A program made the translations under genes and the position numbers. A stretch of 15,704 bases of DNA, taken from positions 1 through 15,704 of the forward strand of contig RFPQ01000005.1 of NCBI GenBank assembly GCA_009926035.1, read 5' to 3'. The notes beneath the pieces are model-generated. The model ran no database searches. It was given only the letters and a program-made list of their open reading frames with translations, and was not told where the DNA came from. The stretch comes from Betaproteobacteria bacterium (GTDB lineage Bacteria > Pseudomonadota > Gammaproteobacteria > Burkholderiales > Methylophilaceae). This document shows positions 1 to 15,704 of the stretch, piece after piece (position 1 is the stretch's first letter; each line of letters opens with the position of its first letter).

Positions 1-1
1 A

Positions 2-1294
2 TTAAGTAACTTGGAGAGACGTATCACGGTTAAAGTGCCGGTTGAACCTCTTCAGAAAGAGATGTCTAGTCGTTTTCAGCGTTTAACTCGAACAGCAAAA
101 GTTCCTGGTTTTAGACCTGGCAAAGCACCTCTAAAAATGATTGAACAGCAATATGGGTCCCAAGTGAAAGAAGAAGTATTTGCTGAAGCGATTGAAACTT
201 CTTTTGGTCAAGCTATTCAGGAGAATAAATTACGTGTTGCTGGTATGCCGAATATCCAACATAAGCCGCTTAATCAAGTTCACGATGATTTTGAATATAC
301 TGCAACATTTGAAATTTTCCCTGAAGTGACATTGGCTGATTTTAAAACTTCAACTATTGAAAAGCCAGAAGCTCAAATCACCGATAAAGATGTTAATAAA
401 ACAATTGATGTCTTACTCAAGCAAAGAGCACAATTTATTGAAACGAAAGAAGCCGCTGCTAAGGGCGATCGACTTACTTTAACACTTACCTCTTTCATTA
501 ATGACAAGCAAGTTGAAACTACAGGCGACAAGCCTATTCAAATTATCCTAGGCGATGATTCTCGTTTTGCTATTTTTGATGATCATCTTGTTGGCGGTAA
601 AGAAGGTGAATCCAAAACATTTGAAGTTAACTACCCAGAAACACATAATCCTAAAGAGTTAGCAGGAAAAAAAGTTCAATACAATGTAAATTTTATTTTA
701 GTTGCCAAGCCTAAACTTCCAGAAGTGAATGCTCAATTTGCTCAATCCCTGGGCGTAGTAGACGGTAGTATCGATAAAATGCGAGAGGAAATTAAACAAA
801 GTTTAGAGCAAGAGCTAGATAAGAGAATAAAAATAAAATTAAAAGAACAGGTTTTTACTCAGCTGATAGATGGCTGTAAGGCCGATCTTCCCAAGGCGCT
901 GATTAATGTTGAAATTAACCGAATGGCTCAATCAACCTATGCAAATTTAAAACAACGTGGAGCCGACTTAAAGCAATTCAAATTAGAACCTTCAATGTTT
1001 GAAGAGCAAGCTAAAAAAACATGCAAGCTTAGATTAATATTAGCTGAGATTGTTGATAAAAATAATCTGAGAGCAACTCCGGATCAAATTAAGGCTATGG
1101 TGAACGAATTTGCACTTAATTTCGATGATACGGATGAGGCGGTTAAATGGTTTTACGCAGAGCCGTCTAGACTTGAAGAGCCAACAGCTCTTGCAACAGA
1201 AACTAATGTGGTTGATTGGTTTATGAAGCAATGTAAAGTAGAAAATAAAAAAACAACATTTGATGAACTTATGACTGGACAAGCTAAAACCTAA
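2..1294 (+). CDS. tig: Trigger factor, ribosome-associated chaperone (5'-truncated by window edge)
   Basis: Trigger factor docks on the ribosomal exit tunnel and shields nascent chains in the cytoplasm. The frame stays open to the left edge: bases 2-10 read L-S-N directly before LERRITV, as in the family N-terminus. The true start therefore lies outside the window, probably about ten residues upstream, and the TTG at 11 is not a start. Visible parts are the ribosome-binding signature GFRPGKAP (about 107-130), a central FKBP-like region (about 464-730) and the helical C-terminal arms ending in the typical TTFDELM stretch. The FKBP part looks degenerate: the usual DFxGxxDGxxFxGG and IPGFE-type motifs are replaced ([19 protein letters not shown]), so prolyl isomerase activity is doubtful while chaperone function should remain. 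clpP follows after 2 bases, implying co-transcription. Identity is secure; the loss of isomerase activity is inference. Confidence 0.96.
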
Positions 1295-1296
1295 TT

Positions 1297-1914
1297 ATGG
1301 CTTACACACCACCAAATAATTTAGGCTATGTGCCAATGGTTATTGAGCAAAGCGGGCGAGGCGAGCGCGCTTATGATATATATTCTCGACTTTTAAAAGA
1401 GCGCGTAATCTTCTTAGTTGGCCCTGTAGACGATATGACAGCAAATGTTATTGTTGCTCAATTACTTTTCCTAGAAGCTGACAATCCTGACAAGGATATT
1501 TCTCTGTATATTAATTCTCCGGGTGGGTCAGTAACAGCGGGAATGGCTATCTATGACACAATGCAATTTATCAAGCCCGATGTGAGTACTTTATGTATCG
1601 GACAAGCGGCTAGCATGGGCGCATTATTGCTTGCAGCTGGAGAAAAAGGAAAGCGTTTTTGTTTGCCTAACTCTCGAGTAATGATTCATCAGCCTCTGGG
1701 TGGATTTCAAGGACAAGCATCTGATATAGAAATTCATGCAAAAGAAATTTTATTTTTAAAGGAAAAACTAAATCAGATTTTAGCAAATCACACTGGCCAA
1801 ACACTTAACAAAATTGCAGCAGATACTGATAGAGACAACTTTTTGAGTGCTGAGCAATCTGTTGAGTATGGCATGGTCGATCAAGTTATTTCAAAGAGAT
1901 CACAAGTAGTTTAA
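1297..1914 (+). CDS. clpP: ATP-dependent Clp protease proteolytic subunit ClpP
   Basis: Serine peptidase (family S14) that forms a double-heptamer barrel and degrades proteins fed to it by ClpX or ClpA in the cytoplasm. The 205 residues match the usual length. The catalytic triad is complete: Ser106 in QAASMGA, His131 in MIHQPLGG and Asp180 in DRDNFLSA, a constant five-residue offset from the E. coli precursor numbering. The substrate-binding stretch [11 protein letters not shown] is intact. The N-terminal [18 protein letters not shown] is of the usual proteobacterial kind with a short propeptide. It starts 2 bases after tig with no clear Shine-Dalgarno, so coupling to tig translation is likely. 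clpX follows after 7 bases, giving both halves of ClpXP from one transcript. Confidence 0.98.
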
Positions 1915-1921
1915 AGCTACT

Positions 1922-3202
1922 ATGGCAACTAAAAGCGATAACGAAAAATTACTTTACTGCTCATTCTGTGGCAAAAGTCAGCATGAAGTAAAAAAACTAA
2001 TTGCAGGTCCTTCGGTATTTATCTGCGACGAGTGTGTTGATTTATGTAATGACATTATTAAAGAAGAAGTCAAAGGCGCTTCAAAAGGAGTTAAAGATCA
2101 TGATCAACTTCCTTCCCCTAAAGAAATTTGCGACCAACTCGATGAGCATGTTATTGGTCAAACAAGTGCTAAGAAAAGTTTGGCTGTTGCTGTTTATAAT
2201 CATTACAAAAGACTTAGGGATAGCAATTCTGAATTAGATATTGAACATAAAGATGTTGAAATTTCAAAAAGTAATATTCTGCTTATTGGACCTACGGGTT
2301 CTGGAAAAACCCTTCTAGCACAAACACTTGCAAAATTACTTGATGTTCCCTTTGTGATGGCGGATGCCACAACACTTACTGAAGCCGGTTATGTTGGTGA
2401 AGATGTTGAAAACATTATGCAAAAATTACTGCAAAAATGTGATTATGATATTGAGAAAGCTCAAAGAGGCATTGTATACATTGATGAAGTTGATAAAATT
2501 TCAAGAAAATCTGAAAACCCCTCAATTACAAGAGATGTCTCAGGTGAAGGTGTTCAGCAAGCACTTTTAAAACTTATTGAGGGTACTGTGGCCTCAATTC
2601 CTCCCCAGGGTGGACGCAAACATCCAAATCAAGAATTTGTTCAGCTCGATACAACAAATATTTTATTTATTTGTGGTGGTGCTTTTGATGGTCTCGAGAA
2701 AATTATTAAGCAAAGATCTGAAAAAGGTGGAATTGGTTTTGGAGCTCAAGTAAATAGTAAGGCAGATGCTAAAGTCATTGGTGATGTTATTAAAGATGTT
2801 GAGCCAGAAGATTTGATTAAATTTGGCTTAATACCTGAATTCATAGGAAGACTTCCTGTTGTCGCAACACTGGAATCTTTAAGTGAGGATGCTTTGGTTC
2901 AAATACTCACCGAACCGAAAAATGCTCTTACTAAACAATATATTAAACTTTTTGCTATGGAACATGTGTCTCTAGAATTCAGACCTTCGGCTTTAAGACT
3001 GATTGCGAAAAAAGCACTTGAGAGAAAGACGGGTGCTCGAGGTCTTCGTTCAATTATGGAACATATCCTATTAGATACAATGTACGAATTGCCATCTATT
3101 AAGAATCTTGAGAAAGTGGTCATTGATGACGGCGTGATTGAACAATCAAATAAACCTATACTTTTATTGTCAGAAAAGAAACAGGTTTCAGGAAAAAAAT
3201 AA
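1922..3202 (+). CDS. clpX: ClpXP protease ATP-binding unfoldase subunit ClpX
   Basis: AAA+ hexameric unfoldase that recognises tagged substrates and threads them into ClpP. At 426 residues it is full length. The N-terminal zinc-binding domain has four cysteines, C13, C16, C35 and C38 (CSFC, CDEC). The AAA+ module shows Walker A GPTGSGKT (123-130), pore loop GYVG (157-160), Walker [10 protein letters not shown] (184-192), the RKH loop (232-234), the ClpP-docking IGF tripeptide (271-273) and the sensor-2 GARGLRS motif near the C-terminus. All functional motifs appear intact, so ClpXP should be active even though the neighbouring lon is disrupted. No Shine-Dalgarno precedes the ATG; a small hairpin spans the clpP stop. 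The 85-base gap that follows contains the candidate lon heat-shock promoter. Confidence 0.98.
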
Positions 3203-3213
3203 GTTCCTACCTA

Positions 3214-3247
3214 GGTCAGTAAAGCCTTGAAATATTATAAACTGACC
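3214..3247. repeat. Inverted repeat GGTCAGT / ACTGACC framing the lon promoter
   Basis: Perfect 7-base arms at 3214-3220 and 3241-3247 are separated by 20 bases. The left arm lies just upstream of the -35 and the right arm runs into the -10 of the candidate heat-shock promoter. The loop is long and no T-run follows, so it does not look like an intrinsic terminator for clpX. An operator or chance are both possible. Confidence 0.35.
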
Positions 3248-3253
3248 CAATAT
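3226..3253 (+). promoter_or_regulatory. Candidate sigma-32 (RpoH) heat-shock promoter of lon
   Basis: CTTGAAA at 3226-3232 matches the RpoH -35 consensus exactly. CCCAATAT at 3246-3253 matches the -10 consensus CCCCATNT at every defined position but one. The spacer is 13 bases, within the usual range. A transcript would begin near 3260, about 28 bases before the lon ATG. E. coli lon is a known sigma-32 gene, which supports the call. It has not been tested against a genome-wide motif background. Confidence 0.6.
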
Positions 3254-3287
3254 TTTAGAAAATAATTATTGCTCATGAAAGCACCTA

Positions 3288-5090
3288 ATGGCTCAAGAAA
3301 TTAAAATTACAGGTTCCCAGCATGATTTCATGCCTCTTCTTCCTTTGAGAGATGTTGTTGTTTATCCTCATCTTGTGATTCCTCTTTTTGTAGGCCGAGC
3401 AAAATCTGTAAAAGCATTGGAAATTGCTTCTGACAAAGATAAAAAAATAATTTTAGTCGCACAAAAGTCTGCAAGTAAAGATGAGCCTGATGCAAAAGAC
3501 CTTTATGAATATGGGACTGTCGCATCTATCCTTCAAATGCTGAAATTACCTGATGGTACCGTTAAAGTTTTAGTTGAAGGTCTAAGCCGCGCAAAAATTA
3601 AAGAAGTAATTGATCAGGAAGCTTGTTTTGTTGCTCGTTTCGATGAAATTAATATTCTCGAACCTAAAGACAAAGAGTCTTTAGCATTAATGAGAACAGT
3701 ATTCTCGCAGTTTGATCAATATGTTAAATTAAATAAAAAAATCCCCCCCGAAATTTTAACGTCCCTGGCCGCTATTACAGACCCTGGCAGATTAGCAGAT
3801 ATGATTGCAGCGCATCTAACTCTAAAACTAGAAGAAAAACAAACGATTTTAGAAACATTAAAAATTAAAAATCGTTTGGATCATCTATTAAAGATTATGG
3901 AATCTGAAATTGATATTCTTCAGGTAGAAAAAAGAATTCGTGGTCGTGTTAAGCGACAGATGGAAAAAAGTCAAAGAGAGTATTACCTCAACGAACAAGT
4001 TAAAGCTATCCAGAAAGAACTGGGTGAACAGGATGAGGGCGCCGATTTAGATGAACTTGAAAAACGAATTCAAGAAGCAGGTATGTCAAAAGAGGCTCTT
4101 AATAAAGCTACATCTGAGTTTAAAAAATTAAAAATGATGTCGCCTATGTCCGCAGAAGCTTCGGTAGTTAGAAATTACATTGATACATTGATTGATTTGC
4201 CGTGGCAGAAAAAAACTAAAATTAGTCGTGAATTAGCCCTTGCGGAGAAGATTTTAGATGAAGACCATTATGGCCTTGAAAAAGTTAAGGAACGTATTAT
4301 TGAGTATTTGGCGGTTCAACAAAGGGTTGATAAATTAAAGGCACCTATTTTATGTTTGGTGGGGCCTCCAGGCGTAGGCAAAACTTCTTTAGGTCAAAGT
4401 ATTGCAAAAGCTGTTAACCGCAAATTTATTCGTATGGCACTTGGTGGGGTGCGAGATGAGTCTGAAATTCGTGGACATCGAAGAACTTATATTGGCTCTA
4501 TGCCAGGTAAAGTTTTACAAAGTATGAGTAAAGTAGGAGTTACCAACCCATTATTTTTGCTAGATGAAGTTGATAAAATGGGCCAAGACTACCGAGGTGA
4601 TCCAGCTTCAGCACTTTTAGAAGTTTTAGACCCTGAACAAAATCATACTTTTACAGATCATTATGTTGAAGTTGAATACGATTTATCTGATGTGATGTTT
4701 GTGGCGACTGCCAACTCAATGAACATCCCCGAACCACTTTTGGATCGTATGGAGATTATTCGCTTATCAGGTTATACAGAGGCTGAAAAGCTTAATATAG
4801 CGATGCAATATTTACTTCCCAAACAGCTCAAGATGCACGGCCTAAAAAAATCTGAGATAAGTATTACCGCAAAAGTGGTCAGAGAAATTATTCAATTTTA
4901 TTCTAGAGAAGCTGGTGTTAGAAAACTTGAGCAAGAAATCGCTAAAATTTGCAGAAAAGCTGTGAAGGAATTGCTTAGCAAAAAGTCACTTAAAAAAGTC
5001 ATTGTGAATAGCAGAAATCTTGAATCATATCTCGGGGTGAAAGTATTAAAGTATTTGATATTGGCCTTGCCTCCAAAAAGAATCAAATAG
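3288..5090 (+). CDS. lon: Lon N-terminal substrate-recognition and AAA+ part, truncated before the protease domain
   Basis: Six hundred residues. The Lon N-terminal substrate-binding domain (about 14-205, starting [20 protein letters not shown]) is followed by a coiled-coil linker (about 210-260) and the AAA+ module. Walker A is GPPGVGKT (359-366), Walker [10 protein letters not shown] (422-430), and a sensor/lid region ends near 585. Residues 587-600 are out-of-frame sequence created by the duplication at 5040-5055. Without the S16 protease domain the product could bind and possibly unfold substrates, but it cannot cleave them. The ATG at 3288 is chosen because MAQEIKITG leads straight into the conserved domain; the preceding GAAAG (3277-3281) is only a weak ribosome-binding site. 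An ATG at 3275 opens an out-of-frame nine-codon ORF overlapping this start and is not considered a gene. Confidence 0.85.
5040..5055 (+). repeat. Exact 8-bp tandem duplication that disrupts lon
   Basis: AAAGTATT occurs at 5040-5047 and again at 5048-5055 with no mismatch. Eight is not a multiple of three, so the extra copy changes the reading frame. With one copy the codons read AAA GTA TTT GAT ATT GGC (K V F D I G), matching the Lon family; with two they read AAA GTA TTA AAG TAT (K V L K Y). Confidence 0.95.
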
Positions 5091-5134
5091 GACAAGTTAC
5101 AGGCCTGGCTTGGACTCAAGTCGGAGGTGAATTA

Positions 5135-5713
5135 TTGACGATTGAAGCTGTCGTTTTGCCGGGTAAAGGAAAAACAATCATTACAGGCAAATTAGGCGAC
5201 GTCATGCAGGAGTCTATTCATGCCGCGATGAGCGTTGTAAGAAGCCGAGCTAAGAAATTAGGCATCGCTGAGAATTTCTATGAAAAAAACGATATTCATA
5301 TCCACTTACCTGAAGGCGCTACGCCTAAAGACGGCCCAAGCGCTGGTATAGGCATTACCTCCGCGATTGTTTCTGCTTTAACTAATATTTCAGTCAGGGC
5401 TGATGTTGCTATGACAGGAGAAATAACGTTAAGGGGTGAAGTTTTGCCGATTGGCGGGCTTAAAGAAAAGCTTCTTGCAGCTCATAGGGGCGGTATTAAA
5501 ACCGTCCTGATTCCGGAGCAAAATGTAAAAGATTTGACTGAAATTTCTGATGAAGTTAAAAATGCCTTGGAAATTCATCCTGTTCGTTGGATTGATGAAG
5601 TTTTAGAGCTTACTTTGACTAAAATGCCCAAGAGTGCAGCTGCTAAGGACCAAAAATCTGTCCCTGTACCCCATAAAAAACTCCCTAATATTATAAAAAG
5701 TATCACACATTAG
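5135..5713 (+). CDS. lon: Detached Lon protease (S16) domain fragment
   Basis: This is the C-terminal proteolytic domain of Lon in the frame restored after the duplication. The homologous frame is open from 5056, so residues [19 protein letters not shown] precede this start. The Ser-Lys catalytic dyad is intact: Ser69 in PKDGPSAG (codon 5339-5341) and Lys112 in [14 protein letters not shown] (codon 5468-5470), 43 residues apart as in E. coli Lon. The first possible start is a TTG at 5135, with GGAGGT at 5123-5128 and a 6-base spacer, a near-ideal ribosome-binding arrangement. However, those bases also encode the conserved VGGELL of Lon, so the match may be fortuitous. If translated, the 192-residue fragment would lack an ATPase motor. 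Whether it is made is unknown. Confidence 0.6.
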
Positions 5714-5744
5714 CGTAAACCTAGCGTTGGTAAGGACTATGTTG

Positions 5745-5750
5745 TAAAAT
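5745..5750 (+). promoter_or_regulatory. Candidate -10 box of the tRNA-Val/tRNA-Asp transcript
   Basis: TAAAAT is followed by a GC-rich stretch (AGCGGCC), the type of discriminator seen at stringently controlled stable-RNA promoters, and lies 26 bases before tRNA-Val. The -35 at the right distance (TAGCGT, 5722-5727) is poor. This is a suggestion based on position and the -10 alone. Confidence 0.4.
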
Positions 5751-5775
5751 AGCGGCCTTACTAATGAGTGTGCAT

Positions 5776-5851
5776 GGGTGCTTAGCTCAGTTGGTAGAGC
5801 GTCGCCCTTACAAGGCGAATGTCGGCGGTTCGACCCCGTCAGCACCCACCA
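5776..5851 (+). tRNA. tRNA-Val (anticodon TAC)
   Basis: The cloverleaf is complete over 76 bases: acceptor GGGTGCT paired with AGCACCC, D-arm GCTC-AGTTGGT-AGAGC, anticodon loop CTTACAA with anticodon TAC (reads GTA, and with a modified U34 other Val codons), T-arm with TTCGACC, and an encoded CCA end. It is 18 bases upstream of tRNA-Asp and shares that gene's terminator. Confidence 0.97.
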
Positions 5852-5869
5852 ATATTAGTAACAAGTTTT

Positions 5870-5946
5870 GGAGTGGTAGTTCAGTTGGTTAGAATACCGG
5901 CCTGTCACGCCGGGGGTCGCGGGTTCGAGTCCCGTCCACTCCGCCA
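5870..5946 (+). tRNA. tRNA-Asp (anticodon GTC)
   Basis: The cloverleaf is complete over 77 bases: acceptor GGAGTGG paired with CCACTCC, D-loop AGTTGGTT, anticodon stem CCGGC/GCCGG around loop CTGTCAC (anticodon GTC, reads GAC and GAT), T-arm GCGGG-TTCGAGT-CCCGT, discriminator G and encoded CCA. A strong terminator starts 8 bases later. Confidence 0.97.
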
Positions 5947-5954
5947 ACATTATT

Positions 5955-5981
5955 AAGGCGAATCCAAAGATTCGCCTTTTT
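5955..5981 (+). terminator. Intrinsic terminator of the tRNA-Val/tRNA-Asp unit
   Basis: The 8-bp stem GGCGAATC (5957-5964) / GATTCGCC (5969-5976) encloses the loop CAAA and is extended by A-T pairs. A T-run follows immediately (5977-5981). This is a textbook rho-independent terminator separating the tRNAs from ppiD. Confidence 0.92.
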
Positions 5982-6050
5982 ATTCACTCAGTAAGAACTT
6001 TTTGGTAGATTTTTTTATCAAACAGCTTAAATAATATTAGGATAAATTCA

Positions 6051-7946
6051 ATGTTAGAAAAATTTAGAAGTTACGCTCAAACTAAAGCTGCACAAATTAT
6101 TTTAGCGCTCATTCTGGTTCCATTTGCATTATTTGGAATTGACTCTTATTTAAATCAAGCTGGTAATAATCTAAGTATTGCAAAAGTTAATGGCTATAAA
6201 ATTGCTCTGCCAGAATATAATCGCGCAATTGAAAATGTGCGTAATCGCATCATGAGTGAGGGTAAAAAAGTTGATCCCGCAATGTTCGATTCATTTGAAT
6301 TTAAAGAGTCGGTAATCGACGGCCTTATCACAAAGCAACTGCTTAATAATGATATTAAAAAATCTAAATTTAAAATCACTGACCAACAATTAAGCCAATA
6401 CATCATTGGTATGCCTGAATTTCAAAAAGATGGAAAATTTTCACAAGAGATTTACGATAAAGTTTTGCAAAATAATCAACTCACCCCTAAAAAATTTGAA
6501 GAGAGCATTAGAAATGATTTGCTTATTCAGCAAGTGCGTGATGGTCTCCAGAAACTTACATTCATTCCACCAAGTAATTTAGAAGAAACCTTAAAAGCAA
6601 CATCACAACAAAGAGAAATAAGCATCGCTGAATTTAAAACTAAAGAATATATGGCAAAAGCAAATATTGCCGAGAAGGATATGCAAGCTTTTTACGATCA
6701 AAATAAATCTAAATTTTTAGCCCCAGAACAAGTAAAGGCTGAATTTGTAGTATTTTCACTAGCAAATATTCTTCCAACTATTAATGTGACAGAAGACGAA
6801 ATAAAATCTTTTTATAAAACAAATGCAGATAAATATCAAAATCAGCAGCAAAGAGAAGCAAGTCATATTTTAATTGCTGCATCTAAAAATGCCCCTCCTG
6901 CAGAAAAAGCAAAAGCAAAAGCAAAAGCTGAAGATATTTTGAATCAAATTCGAAAAAGCCCTAAACAATTTGAAGAATTGGCAACAAAATACTCTCAAGA
7001 TCCAGAATCTGCAAAAAAAGGAGGTGACCTTGGAGCGTTTGGTCGAGGAATGATGGTTAAGCCCTTTGATGATGCAGTTTTTTCAATGAAAGTTAATGAG
7101 ATTAGTAATATTGTTGAATCTGATTTTGGTTATCACATTATCAAGCTGACTAAGATTATAGGTGAGGGTGGTGGATTTGATTCAATGAGACCACAAATCA
7201 AGGCTGAATTAATCTATCAAAAAGGACAAGAAAAATTTGCTGCTCTTGCTGAAGAGTTTAGTAATAAGGTTTATGAACAATCATCCAGCCTCGATGCAGT
7301 ATCAAAGAAATTTAATCTACCTATTCAAAAAACTGATTGGATTAGTCGTAATGATTCGGATAAATTTTTCAAAAATGAAACATTGATGAGCGCTTTATAT
7401 TCAAAAGAATCTATCAAGGACCGTCGAAATACTGAAGCGATTGAAGTAACACCTAACAACTTAATTTCTGCTCGAGTCGTAGATTATAAAGCTCAAACTA
7501 CAAAACCTTTCGCCGATGTTAAAAAAAATATTGAAGACTATTTAAAATTTGAATCTGCAAAGAAAACTGTAGCTAAAGAAGGAGAGACTGTCCTGAAGTC
7601 TTTAGCTGATACTTCTCGAAAAATCGATTGGCAGCCGTCAGTATTAGTTGATCGGAAAAATACCAAAGATTTTAGTGATGCTGTCATTAATCATGCATAT
7701 AAAATGCCTACGGATAAACTTCCAAGCTATAGCGGTTTTATGGATGGCAATAATGGATATATTATTGTTAAGGTTAATAAAGTAGCATTCCCAAACGATA
7801 GCAATGAAGAAAATAAAAAAGCATTTGCATCAGATTACACAGAAGCATTATCTGCTGAGTATTTAAGTGCTTATTTGAAAGGATTAAAAGCGAAGGCGAG
7901 TGTATCAGTCAACCAAAAATTCTTTGAAACATCACAAAAGAATTAG
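6051..7946 (+). CDS. ppiD: Periplasmic folding factor PpiD (SurA N-terminal and parvulin-type PPIase domains)
   Basis: PpiD is an inner-membrane-anchored chaperone that works near the Sec translocon on newly exported proteins. The 631 residues match the family (E. coli 623). A short cytoplasmic N-terminus is followed by one membrane anchor (about 15-33, [15 protein letters not shown]). A SurA_N-type chaperone region (about 35-165) comes next, then a parvulin domain (about 266-368) with [31 protein letters not shown] and FGYHIIKLT. The C-terminal SurA-like arm runs to the end. An AGGA Shine-Dalgarno (6039-6042) lies 8 bases before the ATG. The promoter must lie in the gap after the tRNA terminator; a TTGGTA at 6002-6007 is only a weak -35 candidate. 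The gene converges with fabI, and the stop codons overlap by 4 bases. Many PpiD parvulin domains are catalytically poor, so chaperone function is safer than isomerase activity. Confidence 0.92.
6905..6928 (+). repeat. Four in-frame copies of the hexamer AAAAGC inside ppiD
   Basis: AAAAGC is repeated exactly four times and encodes the alternating Lys-Ala stretch [11 protein letters not shown] near the start of the parvulin domain. The unit is six bases, so gain or loss of a copy changes length by two residues without a frameshift. Confidence 0.9.
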
Positions 7947-8725
7947 TCGATTGAGCCTGCAGCAGTGATATTCATACCGCCATCTACGTAGGTAATTTCA
8001 CCTGTAATGCCTGATGCAAGATCGCTACATAAAAAAGCTGCTGCATTCCCAACTTCTTCAATTGTAACGTTACGTCTTAAAGCTGCATGTTTTTCATTAA
8101 AACCAATCATGCGGTCAAAATCAGCGATACCCGATGCCGCAAGTGTTTTAATTGGCCCTGCAGATACTGCATTTACTCTAATGCCTTTTGGTCCTAGACT
8201 CTGAGCCATATACCTCACGTTTGCTTCTAAACTCGCTTTAGCAAGACCCATAACATTATAATTAGGCATCGTCCTTTCAGCGCCTAAGTAACTTAATGTA
8301 AGTAAACTCGCATGCTCACTAAGCATAGGTAATGCTGCTTTTGCTAACGCTGTAAAGCTATAAGAACTTATGTCATGAGCCATTCTAAAATTTTCGCGAG
8401 TTGTTGCTTCAACAAAATCACCTTTTAAGGCTTCTTTTGTTACAAAAGCTAATGAGTGTACAATGACATCTAGTTTATCCCAATGCTTTTTTAAAAGAGG
8501 AAATAGGTTGTCGATTTGTTCATCAAGCGAAACATCACAGGGCAATACGATGTTTGAATTGAAATCTTGAGCAAGTTTTTTAACGCGCTCGTTGTGTTTT
8601 TCCATTTGATAGGTGAAAGCTAATTCAGCCCCTTCTCGTTTCATAGCCGAGGCAATGCCATAAGCGATAGATCGGTCGCTCAGTAGACCAAGAATTAAGA
8701 CGCGTTTACCTTTCAAAAAACCCAT
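7943..8725 (-). CDS. fabI: Enoyl-[acyl-carrier-protein] reductase FabI
   Basis: FabI catalyses the last step of each fatty-acid elongation cycle, reducing trans-2-enoyl-ACP with NADH in the cytoplasm; it is the triclosan target. It is a short-chain dehydrogenase-type enzyme of 260 residues from the chosen start. Catalytic Tyr146, Tyr156 and Lys163 ([30 protein letters not shown] region) fall at exactly the E. coli numbers, supporting this start. The Rossmann start [15 protein letters not shown] and HDISSYSF are also typical. The ATG at 8725 has AGGA 7 bases upstream. A longer form from an ATG at 8740 would overlap the upstream permease stop as ATGA and add five residues absent from the family; I consider it less likely. 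This is the last gene of the leftward operon, and its stop overlaps that of ppiD. Confidence 0.96.
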
Positions 8726-8736
8726 GTTCTCTTCCT

Positions 8737-9564
8737 TCATTTTTTTTGATTCTTATTTTTCGGATCAAGCAAATCTCTTAGTCCCTCTCCGAGTAAATTA
8801 TAACCTAGGACTGTAATCAAAATAGCAAGCCCTGGAAATAATGATAGCCACCATGCAAACTGAATATATTCTTTGCCATCAGTTAGAATATTTCCCCACG
8901 ATGATTGAGGTGCTTGAACTCCAAGTCCGAGAAAACTTAATCCAGACTCAGTTAAAACTGCGCTTGCAATACCCAAAACAGAGCTTACGATGATGGGTGT
9001 TAAACTATTTGGAAGAAGATGTTTAGAGATAAGTCTGAAATCAGAAGCGCCCATCGCTTCTGCCGCTAATATATATTCTCGATTTCTAAGACTTAGAAAT
9101 TCTGCACGAACAAGACGAGTCACCCCCATCCAAGAAGTAAATCCAATTACAATCATAATGTTCCAAATAGATGGGGTTAAAAAAGCAATGACTGCAAGAA
9201 TAAGAAAAAAAGTAGGGATGGATAACATAATATCTACAAAACGCATGATAATTGAATCGATATAGCCCCGATAAAATCCTGCAATAGCCCCTAAAAATGT
9301 ACCAATTAAAGTAGCAATACCTACGGCAACAAAACCCACTAGAAGTGAAATTCTCGATCCGTAGAGCATGCGCGAGAAAACATCTCTTCCCAATCCATCA
9401 GTCCCCATTAAATGTGAGAAAGAGGGTGGTAAAAGAATAGAGGTAATATCAATATAATTAGGATCGTAAGGAGATAACCATGGGGCAAAAATTGCAACAA
9501 AAAGCACGGCAACAATAATAATGAGTCCACCTAACGCTAATGGGTTTTGTATGATCTTTTTCAA
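8737..9564 (-). CDS. Peptide ABC transporter permease, OppC/DppC type
   Basis: Inner-membrane subunit of a peptide importer (binding-protein-dependent transport family). At 275 residues it has an N-terminal membrane segment (about 10-29), the conserved [22 protein letters not shown] region (45-65) typical of OppC/DppC/YejE proteins, about five further hydrophobic segments, and the cytoplasmic coupling loop [20 protein letters not shown] (167-186) that contacts the ATPase. The start is a TTG at 9562-9564 overlapping the preceding permease stop (TTGA), with GAGG at 9574-9577 nine bases upstream. No better in-frame start exists nearby. The tight overlap suggests translational coupling with its partner permease. 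Substrate specificity cannot be read from the sequence. Confidence 0.92.
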
Positions 9565-10580
9565 TTTGAAATGCCTCGTCTAATTCTTGGGTCTGCCCAG
9601 GCATAACCAATATCTGCGATTAAATTTCCAAATAACGTTAAAACTGATCCAATCGTAAGAATTCCCATGACCACAGGAAAATCTCTCATTAAGACAGCAT
9701 CAAAAAATAATTTGCCCATACCAGAAATTGCAAAAATAGATTCCCCAATTACGGAGCCACCAATTAAACCTGGAATAGATAGGCCTATGATGGTAATGAG
9801 CGGCAGGAGCGTATTTCTCAGAGCGTGTCTATAAATGATCTTATTTTCTGGTAAGCCTTTGGCACGAGCAGTGGTAATATAATCTTGCTGAAGAACATCT
9901 AGCATTCCATTTCTTACGTAAAGAGAAATGCTAGCTAAGCCACCTAAACATGAAATAGATACGGGCAATATAAGGTGTTTAAATAAATCTATGTATTGTT
10001 CAAAATGACCCATCTTTTCAAATCCTGCACTATGAAGTCCTGAAATAGGAAGCCAAGAATGAGTGACACCAGTCCAATACATTAATAAAAGCGCTAGCCA
10101 AAAACCGGGAACAGCAAAACCTATGAATACAATTATGGTAATGAGCCGGTCTGGCCACCGATTTTGATTCACTGCTGAAACTACACCCAGAAAAATTGAT
10201 AACGCAAAGATGATAAGTAGCCCTATTAAATTAATCATAAGTGTTATAGGTAGGGCATCTTGAATCATGCCTTTACTGATATTTCCTTTAGCATCTTTAG
10301 TTTCCCATAGGACAGGGCGTTGATGAGACGCAAAAGAATTGCCAAAGTCTAATTTAACAATACGTTTTAGCCATAAACTATATTGTGTCATCAAAGGCTT
10401 ATCTAGGTTATAAAGTGCTCTTAATTTTTGCCTAGATTCTTCGGACGCTTTTGGATTAAATGCTGATTCTGATGCAGTAATATCACCAGGTGCTAAATGC
10501 ATAATAAAGAATGAAATAAGACTAATACCAATTAACATTGGAATCATCCATAGCAAGCGTTTAATAAGATAATTGAGCAT
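9561..10580 (-). CDS. Peptide ABC transporter permease, OppB/DppB type
   Basis: Partner permease of the OppC-type subunit. The 339 residues contain an N-terminal membrane segment (about 9-30), a long periplasmic loop (about 32-110), then five membrane segments near 113-136, 146-170, 203-222, 257-282 and 302-325. The coupling loop DYITTARAKGLPENKIIYRHALRN (233-256) is the standard EAA-like motif of this family, and the C-terminus YAWADPRIRRG is typical. It starts one base after the stop of the substrate-binding lipoprotein gene and has no clear Shine-Dalgarno, so it probably depends on coupling. Its 339 residues place it among OppB/DppB/YejB-like proteins; the exact subfamily was not resolved. 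Confidence 0.92.
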   Translation of the reverse strand: MLNYLIKRLLWMIPMLIGISLISFFIMHLAPGDITASESAFNPKASEESRQKLRALYNLDKPLMTQYSLWLKRIVKLDFGNSFASHQRPVLWETKDAKGNISKGMIQDALPITLMINLIGLLIIFALSIFLGVVSAVNQNRWPDRLITIIVFIGFAVPGFWLALLLMYWTGVTHSWLPISGLHSAGFEKMGHFEQYIDLFKHLILPVSISCLGGLASISLYVRNGMLDVLQQDYITTARAKGLPENKIIYRHALRNTLLPLITIIGLSIPGLIGGSVIGESIFAISGMGKLFFDAVLMRDFPVVMGILTIGSVLTLFGNLIADIGYAWADPRIRRGISN

Positions 10581-10581
10581 T

Positions 10582-12216
10582 TTATGGAGCTATTTCATTT
10601 CTTCTAAGTGTGGAGGGAATAAACCACTCATATGAATTATATGCAATCCCAGCTGGTGGAGCAGGTGACTCAATACCTTTGATGCGTTTATTCATAGCAG
10701 TTAAACCATATCCAGCGTAAAGATAAATTACAGGACTTTCTTTAAGTAAAATTTTTGAAAAAGCATGATAAATTTTTTCTCGCTTATCAGAGTTTAATTC
10801 GGTACGACCTTCTTCAAGCAGTTCATCAACTTCTTTGTTGCTATATCCAATAAAGTTAAATTGACCAGGTTTTTGTTGCGAAGAATGCCAAATATTATAT
10901 TGATCAGGATCTAGCGATAGGCTCCAACCAAGAATCACTGCATCAAAATCTCCTGTTTTAATAAATTGATTAACAAAGCTCGCCCATTCAATCACTCTTA
11001 TTTTTACATCAATACCAATATCCTTAAGCCTTCTTTGAATTAGGACCGCGGTCATCTCTCTTTGCTTATTTTGATTTGTGAGAATCTCAAATGCAAAAGG
11101 CTTCCCATCTTTTTCTAGGATGCCATCATGATTTAAATCATCAAAACCAGCTTCACGAAGTAATTTTAGGGCTTGATTTTTATCATAAGGGTAGGGGTGT
11201 AGATTTTTGTCACTCCATCGGGTCCCAGGTTTATAAGGTGACGCGACAGGTTCCCCTAGTCCCAAAAGAACGCCATCAATTATTTCTTGCTTATCAAGTG
11301 CATAGTTTATGGCTTGCCTTACCTTTATATCATTGAATGGCTTATGTTTTAAATTAAAACCTAGGTAGGTATAGCTATTTCCAAGCTCTTTATAAAGCGC
11401 GAGTTTATTTTTTAGATCAGGTCGCGAGGGGATAACGCGAGCAAATTGTATGGGATTAATATTCATAAGATCAATATTGTCAGCAATCAATTCTAAAAAT
11501 TGAGAAGATGTATCAGGAATAAATCTTGAAGTCAGTTGATTTATATTGGGCTCACCCATCACTGATGAAGGGTTGGCATCTAATGTCAATTTCTCACCAT
11601 TTATCCATTGAGTCAATTTGTAGTAACTTGAGCCAGTCGGTTTTCTTGAAAAAAAAGTGTGATTGATATCCTCATCCTTAAGAATATGCTTTGGTAGAAT
11701 TTGAAGAGATGCCCAGCTATCTAAGGCAGGAGCATAAGCTTTTTTGTAATGAATTCGAAATGTGTATGGGTCGGGAGCTTCGGCTTTATCAACTAATTTA
11801 TAATCTGATCCGTAAGGAGTTCTTGTTTTTTCATCCGTGACAAGCTCCCAGGTAAAAAGAACATCATTACTTGTAAGTGGATGACCATCAGCCCATTTAA
11901 GATTTCTTTTTAAATAAAAAGTAATTGTTTTTTGATCATCAGAAATTATCCATTTGTTGGCTAATTCTGGTGCTAGCTCTAAATTTTTATCATATTTAAT
12001 AAGCTTATTAAAAATATTTCCTGAAATTGCTGATGAAGCTGAGTCACCAGCAATCATTGAAATAAGATTACTTGGCTCACCAGACATTGCATCAATTAGC
12101 ATTCCACCTTTTTCAATATTAAAAGAGCCTTCGTAGTTGTAGACAGTTTCTTTCTTACTGCTGCACGAAGTTAAGTTAAACAAAAATAATAATAAGAATA
12201 TATATTTTGAAAACAT
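10582..12216 (-). CDS. Peptide-binding lipoprotein of the ABC importer (SBP_bac_5 family)
   Basis: Extracytoplasmic solute-binding protein that captures peptides and delivers them to the two permeases encoded just downstream. At 544 residues it is normal for OppA/DppA-type proteins. The N-terminus is a lipoprotein signal with lipobox LTSC, the acylated residue being Cys18, followed by SSKKE. Family hallmarks include LELAPELANKW, the FYLKRNLKWADGHPLTSNDV stretch, VRQAINYALDKQEI and the IRVIEWASF region. The gene lies 11 bases after mltD and one base before the OppB-type permease. Being next to a murein hydrolase makes cell-wall peptides a plausible ligand, but that is inference from context only. 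No cognate ATPase gene is nearby. Confidence 0.93.
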   Translation of the reverse strand: MFSKYIFLLLFLFNLTSCSSKKETVYNYEGSFNIEKGGMLIDAMSGEPSNLISMIAGDSASSAISGNIFNKLIKYDKNLELAPELANKWIISDDQKTITFYLKRNLKWADGHPLTSNDVLFTWELVTDEKTRTPYGSDYKLVDKAEAPDPYTFRIHYKKAYAPALDSWASLQILPKHILKDEDINHTFFSRKPTGSSYYKLTQWINGEKLTLDANPSSVMGEPNINQLTSRFIPDTSSQFLELIADNIDLMNINPIQFARVIPSRPDLKNKLALYKELGNSYTYLGFNLKHKPFNDIKVRQAINYALDKQEIIDGVLLGLGEPVASPYKPGTRWSDKNLHPYPYDKNQALKLLREAGFDDLNHDGILEKDGKPFAFEILTNQNKQREMTAVLIQRRLKDIGIDVKIRVIEWASFVNQFIKTGDFDAVILGWSLSLDPDQYNIWHSSQQKPGQFNFIGYSNKEVDELLEEGRTELNSDKREKIYHAFSKILLKESPVIYLYAGYGLTAMNKRIKGIESPAPPAGIAYNSYEWFIPSTLRRNEIAP

Positions 12217-13635: not shown

Positions 13636-14361
13636 TCAATATTGATCTTTTAGATCTCTAAGCTTTTTGAATGTCTCTAAAGAATCACAATTTAGGAAAG
13701 GATTTGTTCTTAACTCTTCATCGAGCGATGATGGAACAGTAATTTTTAGTTTTGAAGTAAATTCACTTCTTAATTTTAGATTCATATCATGAGGTTTTAA
13801 TGACAGAGCGAATGCAATATTTTTTTTAGTATATTCATGTGCACAATAGATTCTTGTCTCTTTCGGTAAAGCACTTATTTTTTTTAATGAGTTATACATT
13901 TGCTCATGGGTTCCATCAAATATTCTGCCGCATCCACATGCAAAAAGGGTATCACCACAGAAAAGGTTTTTCATATCGTAATATGCGATATGACCTCGGG
14001 TATGGCCAGGAATTTCAATTATTTTATAGTTTATTTGAAGCTCAGGAATATTAATTTCATCCCCATTTTTAAGGCTTATATTGACAAAATCATATTTGTC
14101 TTTTTGTGGGGTATAGATTGTAATATCCGGATATTTCTTGTGAAGCTCCGAAACGCCGCCAATGTGATCCGCATGATGGTGTGTGATTAAAATAGAAACT
14201 AGGCTGAGACTTTTTCTTTTCAATGCTTCGATGACTGGCTTTGCATCACCAGGGTCAACAACAATGCAATTTTGATCGTTATGAATTAACCAAATATAAT
14301 TATCTTGAAAGGCTTCAATTGGCTCGATTTTAATAAATTGTTTTTCTTTGTAGCCTGTCAT
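13636..14361 (-). CDS. gloB: Hydroxyacylglutathione hydrolase (glyoxalase II)
   Basis: GloB hydrolyses S-D-lactoylglutathione to glutathione and D-lactate, the second step of methylglyoxal detoxification in the cytoplasm. It is a metallo-beta-lactamase-fold enzyme of 241 residues. The dinuclear metal site is complete: THHHADH (His61, His63, Asp65, His66), His120 in IPGHTRGH, Asp137 in CGDTLF and His175 in CAHEYT. The N-terminus reaches IEPIEAFQDNYIWLI, the usual family opening, after ten extra residues; no closer ATG, GTG or TTG start is visible, so the ATG at 14361 is kept. The C-terminal substrate-binding region ends with the typical TVPSSLDEELRTNPFL. It is the first gene of the six-gene leftward operon and diverges from the methyltransferase gene. 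Confidence 0.95.
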   Translation of the reverse strand: MTGYKEKQFIKIEPIEAFQDNYIWLIHNDQNCIVVDPGDAKPVIEALKRKSLSLVSILITHHHADHIGGVSELHKKYPDITIYTPQKDKYDFVNISLKNGDEINIPELQINYKIIEIPGHTRGHIAYYDMKNLFCGDTLFACGCGRIFDGTHEQMYNSLKKISALPKETRIYCAHEYTKKNIAFALSLKPHDMNLKLRSEFTSKLKITVPSSLDEELRTNPFLNCDSLETFKKLRDLKDQY

Positions 14362-14390
14362 TTGTATTCATAGTAAAGTATTTCTATCAT
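14362..14390 (+). promoter_or_regulatory. Weak candidate promoter for the methyltransferase-rnhA-dnaQ unit
   Basis: TTGTAT (14362-14367), a 17-base spacer and TATCAT (14385-14390) make a sigma-70-like pair in the 44-base divergent gap. The -10 matches five of six positions and the -35 three of six. The predicted start lies only about 9 bases before the ATG at 14406, giving a very short leader, consistent with the absence of a Shine-Dalgarno there. Confidence 0.3.
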
Positions 14391-14394
14391 TATA
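14389..14394 (-). promoter_or_regulatory. Candidate -10 box for the gloB-mltD-peptide transporter-fabI operon
   Basis: The minus strand reads a perfect TATAAT here, 27 bases before the gloB ATG, predicting a leader of about 20 bases. No good -35 sits at 16-18 bases; that position falls within the start of the divergent methyltransferase gene. Perfect -10 boxes arise by chance in AT-rich gaps, so the call rests partly on position. Confidence 0.45.
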
Positions 14395-14405
14395 AGATAT
14401 TTTTT

Positions 14406-15122
14406 ATGCCTAAAATTTCACCACAGGAATGGTTTAATAGCCCTTTAGGCCGATATTTAATTGCTTTAGAATATAAATATATAAACCCTGTTGTTGTCGA
14501 TACGTTTGGATTTTATGCGATTCAAATGGGCAATTTCGACATTGATTTTTTAGATCATTCGAGAATTCAGAACAAATTCTCGTTAAACTCGAATCAAGCT
14601 GATTTAATAACGTCTAACGAAGCCTTACCCTTTGATGAGTCTTCCGTAGATTTGCTTATTGTTCCACATATATTAGAGCAAATGTCGGAACCCTATCAAT
14701 TATTGAAAGAGATCCATCGGGTGTTGATGCCTGAAGGGCGCCTTATAATTACAGGTTTTAATCCAACGAGCTTGTGGGGAATAAAAAGACTCCTAAGTTT
14801 TGATATTGATTACCCTTGGAATACTAAATTTATATCACTAAGTAAGATTAGAGAGTGGCTGCCTATTGTTGGTTTAGAAATGGTTGAAGGGAAAATGGGG
14901 TGTTATATTCCCCCAATTCAGCAATTATCATGGCTGAAAAAAATACAAATTATGGAACAATTAGGCGATCGATGGTGGCCAATGTTGGGGGGATTTTATT
15001 TTCTAGTTATACAAAAGAGGGTGCATGGTATGACGCCCATTCAGCCCATGTGGCAAAAGAGATTAATTAAGACTCCAATTTATTCAGCACAAAAATCTAA
15101 AACTTATAAAGTTAAACCATGA
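14406..15122 (+). CDS. YafS-like class I SAM-dependent methyltransferase
   Basis: A 238-residue protein with a Methyltransf_11-type core. The stretch FDESSVDLLIVPHILEQMSEPYQLLKEIHRVLMPEGRLIITGFNP (76-120) is the characteristic second half of that fold. The glycine-rich SAM motif (ExGxGxG) expected near 28-42 is not present in recognisable form; the sequence there is VVVDTFGFYAIQMG, followed by DIDFLDHSRI. The position between gloB and rnhA, divergent from gloB, matches E. coli yafS, whose substrate is not established as far as I know. I therefore give no substrate. rnhA overlaps the stop codon by 4 bases (ATGA), so the two are probably translated together. No Shine-Dalgarno precedes the ATG. 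Confidence 0.85.
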   Translation: MPKISPQEWFNSPLGRYLIALEYKYINPVVVDTFGFYAIQMGNFDIDFLDHSRIQNKFSLNSNQADLITSNEALPFDESSVDLLIVPHILEQMSEPYQLLKEIHRVLMPEGRLIITGFNPTSLWGIKRLLSFDIDYPWNTKFISLSKIREWLPIVGLEMVEGKMGCYIPPIQQLSWLKKIQIMEQLGDRWWPMLGGFYFLVIQKRVHGMTPIQPMWQKRLIKTPIYSAQKSKTYKVKP

Positions 15123-15565
15123 AACCTGATATCACAATATATACAGACGGCGCTTGCAAAGGTAATCCAGGAGATGGTGGCTGGGGTGCATTATTAATTT
15201 CTGGAACAAATGAAAAATCTATTTATGGTGGCGAAAAGAATACTACAAATAATCGTATGGAATTGTTGGCAGTTATTAAAGCGCTCGAAATTGTTAAACA
15301 GACATCTGAAATTAAAATATATACAGATTCCACTTACGTTCAAAAAGGTATTACGGAATGGATTCATGCTTGGAAGCTTAATCAGTGGAAAAATAGTAGT
15401 AAAAAAATTATCAAGAATATAGACTTATGGCAAAGGCTTGATGAGCTAGTATCTGCTCATTCAATTGAATGGCTATGGATTAAAGGCCATGCTGGTCATG
15501 ATGGCAATGAAAAGGCAGATCAACTTGCAAATCAGGGCGTTGATAGTTTATTTAAGGGGTCATGA
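15119..15565 (+). CDS. rnhA: Ribonuclease HI
   Basis: RNase HI cuts the RNA strand of RNA-DNA hybrids, removing R-loops and primer RNA. It has 148 residues, the usual length. The active-site carboxylates Asp10 (IYTDGA), Glu48 (RMELLA), Asp70 (IYTDSTYV) and Asp134 (EKADQLA), plus the loop histidine His124 (KGHAGHDGNE), all sit at exactly the E. coli positions. The Trp-rich basic protrusion (WIHAWKLNQWKNSSKK, 81-96) that binds the hybrid is present. It overlaps the methyltransferase gene by 4 bases. Its stop codon overlaps the start region of dnaQ. Confidence 0.97.
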   Translation: MKPDITIYTDGACKGNPGDGGWGALLISGTNEKSIYGGEKNTTNNRMELLAVIKALEIVKQTSEIKIYTDSTYVQKGITEWIHAWKLNQWKNSSKKIIKNIDLWQRLDELVSAHSIEWLWIKGHAGHDGNEKADQLANQGVDSLFKGS

Positions 15566-15704
15566 TGAGACATATATTTCTAGATACTGAAACAACAGGC
15601 TTGTATGCAAATCAAGGACATCGAATTATTGAAATTGCTGCAATTGAAATTATAAATCGTCGACCCACAAATAATTCTTTTCATTTTTATATAAATCCAG
15701 ACAG
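15565..15704 (+). CDS. dnaQ: DNA polymerase III epsilon subunit (3'-5' proofreading exonuclease), 3'-truncated by window edge
   Basis: Only the first 46 or so residues are visible. They begin MRHIFLDTETTGLY, the Exo I motif of DnaQ with the metal ligands Asp7 and Glu9, followed by GHRIIEIAAIEIINRRPTNNSFHFYINPD, which matches the DnaQ N-terminus closely. The ATG at 15565 is preferred over the ATG at 15562 because AGGGG (15555-15559) lies 5 bases upstream of it; the alternative adds one Met. The gene overlaps the end of rnhA and runs in the same direction, whereas in E. coli rnhA and dnaQ are divergent. The frame is open to the window edge. Confidence 0.92.
   Translation, partial: MRHIFLDTETTGLYANQGHRIIEIAAIEIINRRPTNNSFHFYINPD

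Follow-up and report, generated by a model that had tools for sequence, protein, structure and literature searches.

The lon gene in the window, i.e., the whole 15,704 nt stretch of DNA that was analyzed, is split into two open reading frames by an exact 8-bp tandem duplication. At this site the gene is read in one continuous frame in all of the relatives' loci examined. The duplication is best read as an assembly or consensus error, which is the probable origin. The main rival, which is possible but less likely, is a very recent ordinary loss-of-function mutation of lon by a spontaneous 8-bp tandem duplication.

The divided lon gene

The two copies of AAAGTATT form the sequence AAAGTATTAAAGTATT (positions 5040–5055), which has a single occurrence in the window (Table 1). 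The 5' part of lon encodes the N-terminal substrate-binding (LON) domain, the AAA+ domain and the lid, and it stops approximately 11 codons beyond the second repeat copy. The lon reading frame is frame 3 up to position 5048 and frame 2 from position 5045. The ORF that begins at the TTG covers positions 43–204 of the 205 positions of PF05362 (Lon_C), and the start of the domain is thus missing even if this ORF is translated. The stop-to-stop protease frame, open from the repeat onward, matches PF05362 positions 14–204, beginning at 5048. The ORFs and the position of the repeat confirm an earlier sequence-only reading of this DNA, which described an exact 8-bp tandem duplication that splits lon.

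Table 1. Positions of the tandem pair, the two parts of lon and neighboring genes in the window
Feature	Position	Strand	Description
Tandem pair, AAAGTATT x 2	5040..5055	+	exact; 8-bp insertion vs relatives compared; breaks lon frame
lon 5' part	3288..5090	+	600 aa ORF; Pfam PF02190, PF00004, PF22667
lon 3' part	5135..5713	+	other frame; 192 aa from TTG 5135; S16 protease, Pfam PF05362
clpP	1297..1914	+	upstream neighbor; frame intact; length as in G004; NCBIfam TIGR00493 above cut-off
clpX	1922..3202	+	upstream neighbor; frame intact; length as in G004; NCBIfam TIGR00382 above cut-off
tRNA-Val (tac)	5776–5851	+	downstream of lon
tRNA-Asp (gtc)	5870–5946	+	downstream of lon

The lesion aligns to approximately residues 585–587 of the intact Lon of G004, the nearest relative (see below), and these correspond to chain residues 582–584 of 6u5z. 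This PDB entry is a Lon protease, which we take to be that of E. coli, and it is the best PDB sequence match of G004 Lon. The lesion falls where the protease domain starts: in intact G004 Lon, Lon_C extends from residue 573. The sequence-only reading had the lesion separate the AAA+ module from the S16 protease domain, which both the Pfam domains and the 6u5z alignment bear out. Removal of the 8 bases gives by arithmetic 806 codons including the stop, i.e., a protein of 805 aa, equal in length to G004 Lon and in agreement with the earlier estimate of about 805 residues. When judged against G004, the duplication is also the only visible lesion in lon, as had been proposed. GGLKEK and the Walker-type motifs are read in the two lon ORFs, with alignment to 6u5z. 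The catalytic Ser-Lys pair and the Walker motifs are thus both encoded in the two ORFs.

The intact G004 copy shares its domain order and its 805 residues with LonA, or endopeptidase La (NCBIfam PRK10787 and TIGR00763). The LonA domain set (LON, AAA+, lid and S16 protease) is present across the two parts of the gene in the window, but these parts are separated by the 8-bp frameshift, and the one continuous motor-protease frame of a functional LonA is not found. As judged from its reading frames, the split lon would be functionally inactivated. Programmed frameshifting was also considered; no slippery site is seen at the lesion, and the 109 relatives' loci need none.

The exactness of the repeat is unremarkable: under an order-2 Markov model approximately 0.51 exact 8-base tandem pairs are expected per window, and 28% of 300 simulations had at least one. 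The specific 16-mer of the lon repeat has 0 occurrences in 200 shuffles. A second exact 8-base tandem pair is present in lon at positions 4176–4192; there are no indels there relative to G004, and it is thus a chance pair. The notable point is the insertion relative to the relatives examined together with the broken frame, rather than the exactness of the repeat.

Conservation of lon in related genomes

The genus set consists of 16 genomes (G000–G015), where G000 is the window's own; five of them are single contigs of approximately 1.3–1.4 Mb. The closed genome G004 is the nearest relative and is collinear across all 15,704 bases of the window with 92.9% identity. There are six gaps in this alignment. 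The sole intragenic gap is the 8-bp one in lon, and the remaining five (positions 1921, 3204, 3207, 3210 and 3255) are all between listed ORFs.

Thirteen of the 15 genus relatives have a lon match, and in all 13 loci the gene is in one frame through residues 570–620. The two others, G001 and G012, are 68% and 62% complete, respectively. A 1014-bp query across the site is covered over 1006 bp in each of the 13 matching relatives. A 25-base pattern that represents the two-copy form is found in one of the 16 genus genomes, the window's own; this search was exact, and diverged two-copy forms would escape it, but the reading of frames covers them for the 13 loci. More distant loci give the same result. 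The gene is in one frame at the site in 96 of 96, i.e., in all 16 family or order loci (those with DNA out of 42 matching genomes) and in all 80 GTDB loci, which are the best 80 of 583, selected for their similarity to the protease part rather than at random. Methylophilaceae bacterium LSUCC0717 is among the matches to the protease domain. The alignment of relatives' lon genes that had been proposed as a check thus gives one copy in each of the 13 genus loci with a lon match, and a two-copy split lon shared with relatives, which would have spoken against a recent mutation, is not seen in any relative examined.

No second lon was found in the window's genome, a search limited by the 82% completeness of the draft. 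A redundant role for the split copy beside a second lon was rejected with this result. The other Lon_C match in the genome (contig C290) was also rejected as a second lon; it is a 456 aa ORF that matches RadA (TIGR00416, above cut-off).

Codon differences relative to G004 bear on the age of the lesion. Before the repeat there are 85 synonymous and 10 nonsynonymous codon differences in 584 codons, and after the repeat there are 11 synonymous and 0 nonsynonymous differences in 221 codons. The 11 to 0 ratio indicates that the protease half was under selection until very recently, and as there is no amino acid change in the downstream half, any real lesion in lon would be young. An old pseudogene was rejected, as the changes downstream of the lesion are only synonymous and there is no relaxed selection.

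Frame breaks and mixed strains in the draft genome

The window is contig C246 of the G000 draft, which is 1.18 Mb in 311 contigs with an estimated completeness of 82% and contamination of 2.7%. The draft is inferred to be a short-read metagenome assembly. The contigs of two pairs overlap exactly by 99 bp at their ends, suggesting a de Bruijn assembly with k near 100; these two overlaps were kept out of 686, of which 684 joined contigs reading N and were discarded. The contig sequences suggest that the G000 bin is a mixture of two genomes or more. Their identity to G004 ranges from approximately 86% to 98%. The final 1.5 kb (window positions 14211–15704) recurs in contig C247 (L153) at 87% identity. 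In 500-bp steps along the window, identity to G004 is approximately 89–93% over positions 1–3800, 96–99% over approximately 4000–6000, 87–93% over 6500–12000 and 94–98% beyond. This patchy identity may be due to natural recombination or to a mosaic assembly.

Frame breaks were counted in a sample of 61 contigs (the window and 60 others). Nineteen of these read N, and the 42 with letters total 283,337 bases. Twenty-nine contigs could be compared with ORFs from 800 kb of G004, with a minimum ORF length of 120 aa and a minimum identity of 65% per alignment piece. Three of 200 gene-contig pairs (64,437 aa) are broken, those of lon, rseP and a putative lipoprotein gene. The control, 400 kb of closed genome G010 compared with G004, has no frame breaks in 278 pairs (100,792 aa). 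The difference is in the expected direction but only suggestive (one-sided Fisher 0.073), with small numbers and a control that consists of two closed genomes and not of a comparable draft. In both sets the count can miss breaks that lie close to the end of a gene or affect a short or diverged gene. Locus L146 in G000 and one row of the G010 control were excluded as matches to paralogues or repeated domains.

The break in rseP says more than this count. The rseP gene (L178, contig C292, positions 2569–3844) has deletions of 31 bp and 10 bp and is the sole copy found in the draft. After the 10-bp deletion, exactly 100 bp (3778–3877) are identical to G004 and then the sequences diverge; the other exact runs around the deletion are 20–38 bp. 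The 100-bp run looks like a strain switch or a graph join. Eleven of the 15 genus relatives have the gene whole, counting G012, where the contig ends after residue 435 of 439. Of the other four, G003 has one stop, G005 gives a short partial match, and G001 and G007 give none. The gene is reported to be essential in E. coli, where this requirement can be bypassed by loss of major porins (PMC12421810); the essentiality is E. coli knowledge and does not come from this lineage. The third broken gene (L158, contig C252, positions 1157–1806) encodes a 218 aa putative lipoprotein and has its frame broken near position 1310. It is whole in nine of 15 genus relatives and not found in six, and it has no NCBIfam match.

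Perfect tandem insertions of at least 4 bp relative to G004 were also counted. There are two in 204,625 aligned columns of the sampled G000 contigs, i.e., the 8-bp insertion in lon and a 9-bp one at approximately position 1632 of contig C113 (L191), whose length is divisible by three. In the closed pair G010 and G004, one such insertion (6 bp) is found over 324,941 columns in one direction, and the reverse direction (323,997 columns) has none. The closed-pair case shows that short tandem insertions also arise in nature, but the lengths of the two insertions other than that of lon are divisible by three.

Origin of the duplication

If the duplication is an assembly or consensus error, the second AAAGTATT would be absent from lon in the living organism and would have been introduced during assembly of a mixed-strain short-read metagenome. 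The organism would then carry a single copy, like its relatives, and its Lon would be of the ordinary kind with 805 residues. The duplication may have arisen from an incorrect path or a false join within the assembly graph, and it may share its origin with the other frame-breaking indels of the draft. This reading is favored by the confinement of the two-copy form to the window's genome among 16 genus genomes and by the lack of any other indel within genes over 15.7 kb relative to closed G004. The other frame-breaking indels in G000, including the two in rseP, which is essential in E. coli, point in the same direction, as do the signs of mixed strains (the rseP exact run and the second version in C247) and the absence of nonsynonymous change beside 11 synonymous differences in the protease half. 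Mixed strains are reported to produce bulges, misassemblies and annotation artefacts in metagenome-assembled genomes (PMC8021871), and G000 resembles such cases in having short frame-breaking indels beside mixed strains. It is unlike them in lacking a visible strain switch at the lon site: both sides of position 5040 are approximately 97–99% identical to G004, and no exact run of approximately 100 bp starts at the repeat. A strain switch exactly at this site was rejected on these observations, although a switch between two strains that are both near G004 would stay hidden. The site is also 5 kb away from the closest contig end, and the excess of frame breaks over the closed-genome control is only suggestive.

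If k is near 100, as the 99-bp overlaps suggest, a de Bruijn contig ought to mirror the reads and contain read-supported stretches alone, which counts against an error and for a null mutation. With such a mutation, Lon would be cut after the AAA+ lid, the protease domain would be unmade or uncoupled, and the cell would live without Lon by relying on other proteases such as ClpXP. In favor of a null mutation, the sequence matches on both sides of an exact, clean duplication, loss of Lon by mutation is well known, and the neighboring clpP and clpX are intact. In E. coli, insertion of IS186 in the clpX-lon gap is reported to have been selected independently in four lineages (PMC4618355), a case that resembles the window in a tolerated and sometimes selected loss of lon function. 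It differs in that the E. coli insertion is upstream of lon and was validated by PCR and Sanger sequencing, as described in that source, whereas the window has a coding frameshift in a draft sequence. Against a null mutation, the lesion is absent from every relative examined, and it must be very young yet common enough to be assembled. G000 also breaks rseP and another gene, and streamlined oligotroph genomes are in general described as having few pseudogenes (PMC6794327).

A reversible slipped-strand switch, where one copy is on and two copies are off, is very improbable. A tandem repeat in a coding sequence, with a unit that is not a multiple of three, could revert by loss of a copy. There are reports of spontaneous duplications in pneumococcal capsule genes that lead to phase variation (cited in PMC4022640), and the cap8E/wchA, tts and type 3 cases cited there are like the window in that a short tandem duplication within an ORF breaks the gene. 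However, those cases are of phase variation in cultured strains, as cited, and the window is a single draft sequence with no sign of reversion. According to that source, insertions of up to 9 bp are expected to revert at no more than approximately 1e-5, which counts against a switch. Two 8-bp copies are also too short a tract for frequent slippage, the single-copy site is without a flanking base match to prompt it, and there is no variation in copy number among the species compared (species representatives; all 13 genus loci have one copy). Nothing favors a switch apart from the repeat itself. A literature search at abstract level found no report of a tandem-duplication switch in lon, and the statement extends to that level only. 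Of the mutation, switch and error that the sequence-only reading had listed as options, error or a very recent mutation is favored, and the switch is unsupported by copy number and by reversion rate.

A lost mobile element, with an 8-bp target-site duplication left after excision or with the element dropped by the assembler, is extremely unlikely. Eight bp is a common target-site duplication length, which fits, and the duplication is without microhomology. However, there is no element remnant between the repeat copies, and in a search for one transposase family, DDE_Tnp_1 (PF01609), none was found in G000 (82% complete), whereas nine of 14 control genomes were positive.

With an error as the probable origin of the lon duplication, the G000 draft is one that has short frame-breaking indels in conserved genes, and its single-gene losses are not to be trusted without reads. 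It is highly unlikely that this genome-streamlined planktonic Methylophilaceae methylotroph uses lon, in a part of the population, as a low-frequency two-state switch over regulator proteolysis. If the lesion is real and common in nature, it would represent an unusual loss of Lon in a streamlined lineage.
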